Below, in pieces: positions 4,921-39,048 of a stretch of DNA of 64,000 nt. The notes beneath the pieces are model-generated. The model did no database searches and was not told the origin of the DNA. It was given only the letters and a program-made list of their open reading frames with translations. A program made the translations under genes and the position numbers. Numbering within the stretch: the first letter of the stretch is position 1; each line of letters opens with the position of its first letter. Source of the DNA: Rhodospirillaceae bacterium (GTDB lineage Bacteria; Pseudomonadota; Alphaproteobacteria; Bin65); contig JAPPLJ010000001.1 in the NCBI GenBank assembly GCA_028819475.1, positions 1 to 64,000 of the forward strand. The letters are read 5' to 3'.

Positions 4921-4955
4921 GTTCTATGTTTGTTCTACATTTAACCGACTGTCAA
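4921..4955 (-). promoter_or_regulatory. LexA box (4921-4935) with TTGACA -35 element (4950-4955)
   Basis: GTTCTATGTTTGTTC matches the alphaproteobacterial LexA operator GTTC-N7-GTTC exactly. Read towards the DUF4328 gene it is GAACAAACATAGAAC. A leftward TTGACA lies at 4955-4950, so the operator covers the expected -10 region. It lies in a short AT-rich islet unlike the flanking DNA. The match is seen; LexA binding is inferred. Confidence 0.75.
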
Positions 4956-4994: not shown

Positions 4995-5024
4995 CATGAC
5001 AGAGCATGACATTTCATGACACAT
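4995..5024. repeat. TGAC decamer array, 3 units
   Basis: Three consecutive units of consensus CATGACANNN with an exact 10-bp period, 60 bp beyond the LexA box. Further arrays of the same unit occur at 5171-5200 and 5304-5353, and at three places around 38.6-38.8 kb. Confidence 0.85.
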
Positions 5025-5049
5025 CCCGGACTCACTGCCACTCCTCCGT

Positions 5050-5149
5050 GCCACCCCGGACGGAGCGCAGCGGAGATCCGGGGCCCAAGGGCCACAGGCA
5101 AACATCTTTCGGATCATCCCTGGGCCCCGGATCAAGTCCGGGGCGGCAA
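5050..5149. repeat. Dispersed palindromic element
   Basis: The left arm CACCCCGGACGGAGCGCAGC...GGATCCGGGGCCC-type sequence and the right arm GGGCCCCGGATCAAGTCCGGGG form an imperfect inverted repeat around a ~25-bp centre. It is similar in style to the elements at 6653-6838 and is inserted between two TGAC decamer arrays. Confidence 0.65.
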
Positions 5150-5170
5150 TGGAAGGTGGAAATGCAGGAT

Positions 5171-5200
5171 CATGACAGACCATGACATTTCGTGACACAT
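5171..5200. repeat. TGAC decamer array, 3 units
   Basis: Three units in 10-bp register (CATGACAGAC, CATGACATTT, CGTGACACAT). The last two units nearly repeat the last two of the 4995-5024 array. Confidence 0.85.
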
Positions 5201-5247
5201 TTGGGGCTCGGAAGGACCATCGGCTCCTTTCGAACAGGAACGGCCAT

Positions 5248-5275
5248 GTAGGGAGGGTTTGAAACCCTCCCCTAC
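5248..5275. repeat. Palindromic hairpin repeat
   Basis: GTAGGGAGGGTTT is followed at once by its near-complement AAACCCTCCCCTAC with a one-base bulge. It could act as a bidirectional terminator-like hairpin, but no U-tract follows, so a dispersed repeat is the safer call. Confidence 0.6.
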
Positions 5276-5303
5276 GGATCGATGCGGCAGGGCGCGGGGG
5301 TGC

Positions 5304-5353
5304 CATGACGATTCATGACAGACCATGACGAAACATGACATTTCCTGACATGG
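5304..5353. repeat. TGAC decamer array, 5 units
   Basis: Five units in perfect 10-bp register (CATGACGATT, CATGACAGAC, CATGACGAAA, CATGACATTT, CCTGACATGG). This is the longest array in the window. It ends about 50 bp before the start of the FemAB-like gene. Confidence 0.85.
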
Positions 5354-37440: not shown

Positions 37441-37492
37441 CCTTCAAGACGGGCCTTCAAGACGGGCCTTCGAGACGGGCCTTCGAGACGGG
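37441..37492. repeat. 13-bp tandem repeat, 4 copies
   Basis: Four head-to-tail copies of CCTTC(A/G)AGACGGG with a 13-bp period. The related CTTCGAGAC sequence recurs in the repeat cluster at 41533-41700. The rest of 37364-37643 shows CGTCATCCCGGCC-like repeat scraps and no gene. Confidence 0.75.
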
Positions 37493-37643
37493 CGTTTCGC
37501 CGTCACCCGCCCTTCTTTCACCGTCGTCCCGACCCAAACGTCCCCAACCCATTGTCCCGGCCGGCCGTCCCCCTCATCGTCATCCCGACCGAAGCGGCCG
37601 TCGCCGCCCTTCCCAACCCGTCATCCCGGCCGGGCTCCCCTCC

Positions 37644-37793
37644 CCGTCATCCCGACCGAGCGGAGCGAGCGGAGGGATCCCGGCTCGAACTCAACGAACG
37701 GAACCCCGAGGTCTGCGACGGGATTCCTCCCCTTCGACTTCGCTCAGGGCAGGCTACTACGCGGACTGGCGTCCGCTCCGGTCGGAATGACGG
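37644..37793. repeat. 150-bp palindromic MITE-like element, left copy
   Basis: It starts CCGTCATCCCGACCGAGCGG and ends CGGTCGGAATGACGG, imperfect terminal inverted repeats. CCCCTTCGACTTCGCTCAGG is internal. A related element in the same orientation lies at 38861-39013, so the pair brackets the terminase-like gene. Confidence 0.75.
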
Positions 37794-37820
37794 ATGGGGT
37801 TTGTCGGGGCAGAGGAAAAA

Positions 37821-37850
37821 TTGTTGATTATCATGTTTTTTTCCTATATC
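37821..37850 (+). promoter_or_regulatory. Promoter of the terminase-like gene
   Basis: TTGTTG (37821-37826) and TATATC (37845-37850) with an 18-bp T-rich spacer, in a markedly AT-rich islet. The transcription start would fall at the LexA box. Confidence 0.55.
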
Positions 37851-37858
37851 TTCAAAAG

Positions 37859-37873
37859 GAACATTTATCGAAC
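37859..37873 (+). promoter_or_regulatory. LexA box of the terminase-like gene
   Basis: GAACATTTATCGAAC is an exact match to the alphaproteobacterial LexA operator GAAC-N7-GAAC. It is 9 bp after the predicted -10 and 15 bp before the ATG, a position suited to repression. It shares orientation and six further bases with the site upstream of the DUF4328 gene. Confidence 0.78.
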
Positions 37874-37888
37874 ATAAGGAAGCCCGCC

Positions 37889-38830
37889 ATGTCCCGGCCC
37901 TTGTCCGACAACCCGGCCGAAACCGCGCCGAAGTCTCCGCCCGCGCCGCCCCCTGCGCCGCCCCTCACCCTGCGCCATGAGGAGTTCTGCCGCCACTATG
38001 CCGCGACCGGCAACGCCGCCGGGGCGGCGCGGGATGCCGGCTATGCCGCGGGCTCGGCGCGTCAGACCGGGCACGACCTGCTGGAGCGGCCGGCGGTGGC
38101 CGCACGGGTGCGCGCCATCCGGCAGGCCTGGCGGGCGGTCGAACGCGAAGAGGCGCAGATCCTGCTCGGCCGGCTCGAGCAGGCCTGGGACGCGGCGGTC
38201 GAGAAGGGCTCGGCGTCGCTCATGCTTAGGGTCATCAGGTTGCAGGCCGAACTGTCCGGCCTCGACCGGCGCAGCGCCCAGCGGCGCGCCGGCCTGTGGC
38301 CCCTGCCCGGAGAGGAGGCGGGAGAGCAGGCGGGAGAACCGGCGGAAGAGAGGCCGGTTGACGGGGCCGAAGGCCCCATCGCCGAGGCGGTGCGCCGGGG
38401 CCGGCACCGGACCGAGCGGGCCCTCGCCGCCCACCGGGCGAGCCGCAGGGCGCTGGAGCGGCACACGGATTTCGACGAGGCGGCCTGGCTGGCGACGGCC
38501 CAGCGCCTGCACGCCACCGTCGAGGAGCGCCGGCCCCGCACTCCGGTTCGGATGGACCGCAGGCCGGCGCCCGCGATGACGAATCCTGACAATTCCTTAC
38601 ACGGGGCCGTACACGGGGCCGCGGACGCGCCGATGCCGGACAGCGCACCGGGCGGCCCGCCCCCGACAAATCCTGACATATCCTTACACCGGGCCGGCCT
38701 GCTGCCGGCGGCGGCGGAGGACCGCGCCCGCGGGCCGGCCGGCGTACCCGTCGCGCCCGACAGGCCGTTCTTCCCGTTCTTCACTGACGCGGACAGGGAC
38801 CGGACCATGACGGAACATGACGAATCCTGA
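37889..38830 (+). CDS. Terminase small subunit-like (HTH) protein, SOS-boxed
   Basis: A 313-residue protein, mostly uncharacterised. Residues ~30-80 (LTLRHEEFCRHYAATGNAAG, then ARDAGYAAGSARQTGHDLLERPAV) closely follow the DNA-binding N-terminus of phage terminase small subunits. A helical middle (residues 80-215) is rich in Arg/Glu/Ala. The last ~100 residues are proline-rich and include two similar peptides, TNPDNSLHG and TNPDISLHR, that are translations of TGAC decamers in the DNA. No large terminase or other phage gene is adjacent. AAGGA precedes the ATG at 37889. The promoter carries a LexA box, and both flanks carry a palindromic element in direct orientation. A small mobile or satellite-like unit is possible, but the function is unknown. 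Confidence 0.75.
   Translation: MSRPLSDNPAETAPKSPPAPPPAPPLTLRHEEFCRHYAATGNAAGAARDAGYAAGSARQTGHDLLERPAVAARVRAIRQAWRAVEREEAQILLGRLEQAWDAAVEKGSASLMLRVIRLQAELSGLDRRSAQRRAGLWPLPGEEAGEQAGEPAEERPVDGAEGPIAEAVRRGRHRTERALAAHRASRRALERHTDFDEAAWLATAQRLHATVEERRPRTPVRMDRRPAPAMTNPDNSLHGAVHGAADAPMPDSAPGGPPPTNPDISLHRAGLLPAAAEDRARGPAGVPVAPDRPFFPFFTDADRDRTMTEHDES
38577..38600. repeat. TGAC decamer array inside the terminase-like gene, 3 units
   Basis: TGAC at 38577 and 38587 and TTAC at 38597 in exact 10-bp steps (unit like TCCTGACAAT). It encodes MTNPDNSLH. Confidence 0.7.
38664..38687. repeat. TGAC decamer array inside the terminase-like gene, 3 units
   Basis: CGAC, TGAC and TTAC at 38664, 38674 and 38684, a second in-frame copy of the preceding array encoding TNPDISLH. 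Confidence 0.7.
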
Positions 38831-38841
38831 CATATCCTGAC
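38808..38841. repeat. TGAC decamer array at the 3' end of the terminase-like gene, 4 units
   Basis: TGAC at 38808, 38818, 38828 and 38838. The gene's TGA stop (38828-38830) is itself part of the third unit, so the array runs across the end of the gene. Confidence 0.8.
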
Positions 38842-38860
38842 ACCCGCACGACTCTCTCCC

Positions 38861-39013
38861 CCGTCATTTCGACCGAACGAAGTGAGTGGAGAAATCTTTC
38901 CGGTTCAGCGCTTCGGACGTTGCACCGCGCCGGAACGATATCTCCGCTCCGCCCCGGCCCCTTCGAATTCGCTCAGGGCAGGCTCCGGGCCGGGGCTCCG
39001 GTCGATATGACGG
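38861..39013. repeat. 150-bp palindromic MITE-like element, right copy
   Basis: CCGTCATTTCGACCGAACGA at the left and CGGTCGATATGACGG at the right, with CCCCTTCGAATTCGCTCAGG inside. It matches the left copy in order and orientation but is diverged. No gene lies between 38842 and 39048. Confidence 0.75.
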
Positions 39014-39048
39014 AGCAGGGAACGGAGGGCGGGGCGCACAGCACCCCC

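Follow-up and report, generated by a model that had tools for sequence, protein, structure and literature searches.

We describe a chromosomal gene encoding a 313-aa protein that resembles the small terminase subunit (TerS) of phages, together with arrays of TGAC-type decamers located in and at the end of this gene and at many other places in the genome. The protein and the arrays likely constitute a cognate, SOS-controlled pair, a reading to which we assign a probability of about 75%, and the sequence comparisons suggest that the protein very probably binds the scattered decamer repeats. A literature search found no earlier description of a pairing of a TerS-like protein with dispersed repeats, and the array sequences were not found in the papers searched. 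An earlier note on this DNA had proposed a stand-alone LexA-boxed DNA-binding protein with its own repeats; the recurrence of these elements in related genomes supports this proposal, in which the binding itself is putative. The way in which TerS proteins read DNA is an open question, and the natural protein-site pairs presented here address its specificity. If the pairing is true, it means that the part of a viral packaging motor that recognises DNA can persist on chromosomes as a dispersed system under DNA-damage control. Transduction, phage defence or genome rearrangement in uncultured bacteria might then be affected.

A TerS-like gene behind a LexA-type operator

The gene is located in the window, i.e. 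the whole 64 kb stretch of DNA that was analysed, between genes for a carboxyltransferase and an MFS transporter. No phage genes lie beside it, as the earlier note had observed. The features of this locus, read from the sequence unless another basis is given, are as follows:

37443..39045 (no strand), variable unit that spans the gene with its arrays and a pair of REP-like hairpins; orthologous place empty in G005 and almost empty in G004
37645..37793 (no strand), left REP-like hairpin (CCGTCATCCCGACCG ... CGGTCGGAATGACGG)
37821..37850 (+), promoter-like sequence with a -35-like TTGTTG (37821-37826) and a -10-like TATATC (37845-37850); sequence and conserved upstream stretch
37859..37873 (+), LexA box GAACATTTATCGAAC; found at an unchanged distance in every same-clade copy that has upstream DNA
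37889..38830 (+), TerS-like protein, 313 aa, ATG at 37889; Terminase_2 and phrog_51 matches, dN/dS about 0.28
37964..38272 (+), HTH and helical-hairpin core domain; profile match, AF2 model with pLDDT 88, PDB matches to SF6 TerS
38861..39013 (no strand), right REP-like hairpin (CCGTCATTTCGACCG ... CGGTCGATATGACGG)

The matches to phage TerS families and to Terminase_2 cover the N-terminal third of the protein, with residues 26-96 matching Terminase_2 (Pfam PF03592, E 1.3e-10) and phrog_51 TerS being matched at 1.2e-12. A profile search of the PDB returned SF6 TerS (2cmp, 3zqp, 4zc3) at E 2e-9. The alignment-based AlphaFold2 model of residues 18-140 (pLDDT 88) exhibits the three helices of an HTH, one long helix and one returning helix. 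Foldseek ranked SF6 TerS first and the TerS of NV1 and PaP3 lower, with weak E-values (best 0.12) and a probability near 1 for the HTH part. The N-terminal HTH and the helical core of the PF03592 small terminases are present in both sequence and predicted fold, the latter being closest to SF6 TerS, which bears out the resemblance of the N-terminal segment to phage small terminases noticed in the earlier note. The recognition helix reads SARQTGHDLL. The dN/dS of about 0.28 applies to the TerS-like domain, between copies, and a C-terminal module found in sister copies is missing from the window copy. No match to the protein was obtained with NCBIfam or with a defence library, and a domain search of the protein revealed no transposase domain. 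The HTH and helical-hairpin core is shared with SPP1/SF6-type small terminases, but here no large terminase or structural genes are found nearby, and a LexA operator is present.

This operator is an exact GAAC-N7-GAAC, 15 bp 5' of the ATG as the earlier note had stated, and it lies directly downstream of the likely -10. Three such boxes are observed in the window versus 1.7 expected, so that a single box is unremarkable by chance; what gives it weight is that relatives carry it at the same position. Every same-clade copy with upstream DNA, in five genomes and in further MAG records, has it at about this distance, i.e. as a clade-specific promoter box conserved in orthologues, which is the mark of a LexA (SOS) regulon. 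Some of the more distant copies have it as well (GAACGCCAGCGGAAC in JAJECZ, GTTCTTGAAATGTTC in G010, GAACATAATGCGAAC in G104 and GTTCATGGATTGTTC in G355), and GAACATNNNNNGAACA is also found 5' of ssb, of an SRAP gene and of dprA in the source genome. As the alphaproteobacterial LexA box was published as GTTC-N7-GTTC (PMC3323433), of which GAAC-N7-GAAC is the opposite-strand reading, the predicted LexA control of the TerS-like gene is well supported, and its induction by DNA damage would be expected. At dprA, the LexA-type box (GAACATACAACGAACA) is located shortly 5' of the start codon (L108 1501-1539). Another stretch at TerS-like gene promoters, TTCCTATAT, is conserved throughout the family, including promoters at which no LexA box is seen (L066, L077, L084 and the copies of the genus).

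The 1.6 kb segment carrying the gene is variable. It is missing in G005, where its flanks adjoin (C144, 4346/4353), and in G004 the flanks nearly adjoin (C50, 19992/20032). The orthologous place is filled in G000 and G001, and contigs break there in G002 and G003. The REP-like hairpins have matches at many places in the carriers and hardly any in the congener G006. A tandem duplicate of a 129-bp unit, 87% alike, was also listed at 2178-2430 of the window in the tandem repeat table.

Phased decamer arrays in the window and in the source genome

The arrays of the window and a box associated with them are the following, again read from the sequence unless otherwise stated:

4921..4935 (-), GTTC-N7-GTTC box next to the arrays at 5 kb, oriented towards a minus-strand gene
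4997..5349 (+), array-only locus with TGAC arrays at 4997-5020, 5173-5196 and 5306-5349 and hairpin spacers
38577..38600 (+), in-gene array 1, TGACGAATCC TGACAATTCC TTAC (TGAC..TGAC..TTAC)
38664..38687 (+), in-gene array 2, CGACAAATCC TGACATATCC TTAC (CGAC..TGAC..TTAC)
38808..38841 (+), terminal array of four TGAC boxes, with the stop TGA (38828-38830) inside the third; sequence and recurrence in relatives

The last three correspond to the arrays of 10-bp period that the earlier note had described within the 3' part of the gene and over its end. The two repeat loci that it named, the gene itself and the 5 kb locus, are both genuine, but their number was too low: there are about 25 decamer loci in the source genome, most of them without a TerS gene, and 4 TerS-like copies. 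The left half of the 5 kb locus, arrays included, is present at the corresponding place in G004 (L328).

In the window, TGAC-N6-TGAC occurs 12 times on the plus strand and 0 times on the minus strand, versus 0.33 (maximum 2) after first-order Markov shuffling. Genome-wide, TGACNNATCCTGACA with at most one mismatch has 70 sites and its reversed control 0. The spacing of TGAC boxes is strictly phased, with 106 pairs at 10 bp, 50 at 20 bp and 13 at 30 bp (0, 1 and 8 on the reverse strand), and the usual decamer site is asymmetric, 5'-CATGACGAATCATGACATTTC[A/C]TGACA. At the orthologous loci of G001 and G004, which were picked by decamer hits, a choice with the same effect on cores as on linkers, identity reaches 346/353 positions in the TGAC cores versus 316/352 in the linkers (p 3e-6); identity in the near flanks of the arrays is 88% or 81%. 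No strand-composition bias was observed at the arrays, and a replication-polar motif of the KOPS/Chi type was dropped for this reason.

Many TerS-like copies end on a TGAC box, whose TGA serves as their stop codon. As any frame entering a three-box array meets a TGA, this register alone is no proof of a link. Within the in-gene arrays, two boxes are kept and the third is altered (TTAC, GTAC or TTGC) exactly where its TGA would be in-frame, which indicates that the boxes and the reading frame are both kept. This pattern also bears on the idea that the arrays function in translation, as translated micro-ORFs (MTNHDIS-stop) or as universal stops, and not as protein-binding sites. A three-box array does offer a TGA to each of the three frames and is overlapped by ATG starts, yet the in-gene arrays avoid the stop while keeping their other boxes, and the decamer of a second genus, described below, contains no TGA. 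Ribosome-binding-like sequence is weakly in excess (35/133 versus 19-20 at control offsets), for which the micro-ORFs were set aside, and we regard this whole reading as highly improbable.

Joint occurrence and covariation of protein and decamer

TGACGAATCATGACATTTC, with at most two mismatches, was found 45 times in the source genome, and five congeners have 26-47 occurrences each. It has no occurrence in the congener G006 or in any of the 54 genomes searched outside the genus, and the reversed controls also gave 0. TerS-like genes give 3-8 matches per carrier in the genus and none in G006; in other words, five congeners possess both protein and decamer and the sixth possesses neither. In G372, from a different family, 93 decamer hits accompany 8 TerS-like matches; G355 (outside the genus, one contig) has 12 TerS-like copies and 15 decamer hits. 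Whether GAAC-N7-GAAC and the 10-bp arrays recur with the protein had been raised in the earlier note, and in related genomes they do; other MAGs and another family likewise have the operator and an array at the stop codon. These genomes are mostly MAGs, with many loci at contig ends and heuristic gene calls beside the arrays. Among named records, the close relatives come from alphaproteobacterial MAGs, mostly Rhodospirillaceae and several from sponges by name, and no phage or plasmid context was seen around them.

The recognition helix and the site vary together. A TGAC array is found at the stop codon in 25/34 copies with an ARQ recognition helix and in 1/42 of the others (Fisher 1.4e-11, with related copies counted and uncorrected for relatedness). 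Within G355 alone, the corresponding figures are 4/5 ARQ copies and 0/7 other copies. In a sister genus, g3 (G008 and G010), TerS-like genes carry another decamer, AAAGCCAANN, in arrays at their 3' ends, and this decamer is dispersed in both genomes (72 and 31 sites, respectively) and absent from the six other genomes searched. Arrays are lacking in some TerS-like clades, namely the C25 type, G104 and the AKQRG copies of G355. The C25-type subfamily (L012, L076, L083, L259, L274), with approximately one copy per genome and 46% identity, has the same recognition-helix motif and neither a LexA box nor an array at the stop codon.

These observations are difficult to reconcile with arrays that are independent REP/IS-like repeats, lying in or near the gene by chance and functionally unlinked to the protein. 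The alternation of arrays with REP-like hairpins, the IS elements that have hit them and the absence of the gene at most array loci could be understood in this way. The joint presence or absence of protein and decamer, the second matching pair in another genus, the covariation of helix and site and the avoidance of in-frame stops inside the gene could hardly be, and chance association appears improbable. Among known systems, RAYT (TnpA-REP) and REP/REPIN likewise combine a multi-copy protein gene with cognate dispersed intergenic repeats, lineage-specific pairing and flanking hairpins. In contrast to these, no HUH tyrosine transposase gene lies beside the repeats and the TerS-like protein has no detected transposase domain; the boxes are direct and phased, not palindromic, and the promoters are of the SOS type.

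Array-only loci

The array-only loci consist of short arrays (2-5 boxes) interleaved with REP-like hairpins, and orthologues differ in how many units they have. A same-strand GAAC-N7-GAAC is present at most 450 bp upstream in 27/54 of these loci (counted in three genomes where the upstream DNA sufficed, each orthologue separately), versus 2 boxes in the other orientation, 0 downstream and a background of 3 in 205,517 positions. TTGAC lies just upstream of the box in 23/27 of the boxed loci, and most of these boxes share one sequence, GAACATTATATGAACA. In the genome, thirteen SOS-like promoters with an identical GAACATTATATGAACA were noticed (L094, L096, L098, L101, L105, L106). Several are followed by a AAAAAACACGGTATATAGACCGGTCTGTTTT stretch with a AGACCGGTCT palindrome and have no decamer array; these form a separate repeated regulatory element.

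The genes beside the arrays are unrelated metabolic genes, and an SOS regulon of array-neighbour genes was dropped on these grounds. A known-RNA search near the arrays returned tRNAs and one PYLIS_3 hit only. The latter (Rfam, pyrrolysine insertion element, L026 1777-1876) falls in a frame that is open and without TAG, and an MttB-family gene adjoins the array locus there (L026 1379-2950, minus strand).

The protein could be part of a domesticated system, in which an SOS-induced TerS-like oligomer would bind the arrays to the benefit of the cell, for example as a transcription roadblock behind SOS promoters, as a DNA bridge or as a decoy that disarms incoming phage terminases. The stronger conservation of cores than of linkers at orthologous loci, the dN/dS of 0.28, the SOS-type promoters directed into arrays and the sharing of most array loci among close species are consistent with such a role. 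It accords poorly with the metabolic neighbours, the lack of a defence-library match, the variation in array number and hairpin units between orthologues and the congener devoid of both partners, and we consider it doubtful.

A more tentative proposal, for which we have somewhat less than even confidence, is that of a new kind of dispersed element, comprising an SOS-switched orphan TerS and lineage-specific arrays, with coevolving helix and decamer. Its autonomous units (with the gene) and non-autonomous units (SOS promoter and array) would multiply over chromosomes. At L282, a shortened TerS runs straight into an array; this copy and the window copy, with its missing C-terminal module, may be deletion products marking the passage from gene units to array-only units. 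As most array loci are common to close species, recent mobility is shown for few. One array locus of G004 (L321) combines the left flank of one G000 array locus with the right flank of another (L016, L019), which suggests a rearrangement between arrays.

Integron-like cassettes between arrays were dropped from consideration, since the two largest differences between orthologues were, by eye, IS1595-like and IS110-like insertions. The IS1595-like element splits an array, with TCATGACA on both sides in what looks like an 8-bp target duplication, and the IS110-like element lies between arrays (L024 3324-5001 and L035 2976-4624); neither IS is present at the same place in G001.

Proposed mechanism and relation to phage packaging

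We favour, as reasonably probable, an SOS-controlled orphan TerS with cognate pac-like arrays, existing as gene copies and array-only derivatives. LexA would repress the TerS-like genes and many array-only loci through the GAAC-N7-GAAC boxes observed there, and DNA damage should lift this repression. The TerS-like protein would oligomerise and place successive HTHs on TGAC boxes 10 bp apart, one per helical turn, an arrangement close to the nucleosome (wrapping) model of TerS-DNA contact reviewed in PMC9611059. Its sites would comprise the arrays inside or across the 3' end of the gene, as for pac in the terS gene of P22, and about 25 further ones. Gene copies and array-only copies would be the autonomous and non-autonomous members of one dispersed family, whose copy number, insertion polymorphism and truncated gene-to-array forms are observed. 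This would amount to the action of a TerS at pac-like sites without a known resident motor. Our best guess is that bound arrays serve as packaging or recruitment sites once a phage brings a compatible large terminase; hitchhiking in phage particles, a decoy and a chromosomal role are all guesses at the biological output. Known TerS proteins mostly bind weakly in vitro and without clear specificity (PMC9611059). Here, the helix and the strictly 10-bp-phased site change together, which makes both the specificity code and the proposed wrapping mode directly testable.

A packaging role is attractive because LexA controls operon I of SaPIs, with its gene for a TerS homologue (PMC11442139), and because the P22 pac site lies inside terS (PMC9611059). 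In a minimal packaging satellite or gene-transfer module, the SOS-induced TerS would redirect the large terminase of a phage, either infecting or induced, to the chromosomal arrays, and array-adjacent host DNA would be packaged and transferred, as SaPI TerS does for SaPI DNA. The TerS fold and the arrays inside the terS-like gene fit this scheme. It is weakened by the scattering of arrays over the chromosome, where they do not mark one island, by the lack of close relatives in phages or viral contigs, and by a search for the Terminase_6N family of large terminases, which found none in G000-G008, including seven genomes of the genus. We therefore regard this scheme as unlikely; the likelihoods given for it and for the domesticated or decoy system concern the output and overlap with the cognate pairing.

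Recognition repeats in or at its own gene are shared with P22, but the TerS-like gene is surrounded by metabolic genes, without partner large terminase or packaging genes, and its many chromosomal copies and many dispersed, strictly phased 10-bp sites set it apart from SPP1/SF6-type terminases and their pac. SaPIs and PICIs also possess a LexA-controlled small terminase outside a complete phage, whereas the 1.6 kb variable segment contains a single gene and no island, integrase, regulators, capsid-remodelling or replication genes. The Rhodobacter capsulatus GTA likewise involves an alphaproteobacterial chromosomal small terminase, and has its own structural cluster and particles with mostly random host DNA; here, sequence-specific arrays would be expected to be used. 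A GTA reading gained no support from the Terminase_6N search. A phage origin was sought in databases: tblastn against 50,697 phage records gave no match to the TerS-like protein, and viral contigs gave four remote HTH/TerS matches only. The satellite or GTA-like part suggested by the earlier note is thus not substantiated.

A near-identical phased array (TGTCACGAAATGTCACGATGCGTCAC) is present on the opposite strand in two viral contigs (L192 4140-4460 and L193 5800-6118), inside an O-like phage replication gene encoding VTKCHDAS repeats. These contigs were dropped as phage relatives because of this location and strand. Their array, perhaps composed of origin iterons, is probably unrelated to the chromosomal arrays and resembles them by coincidence.
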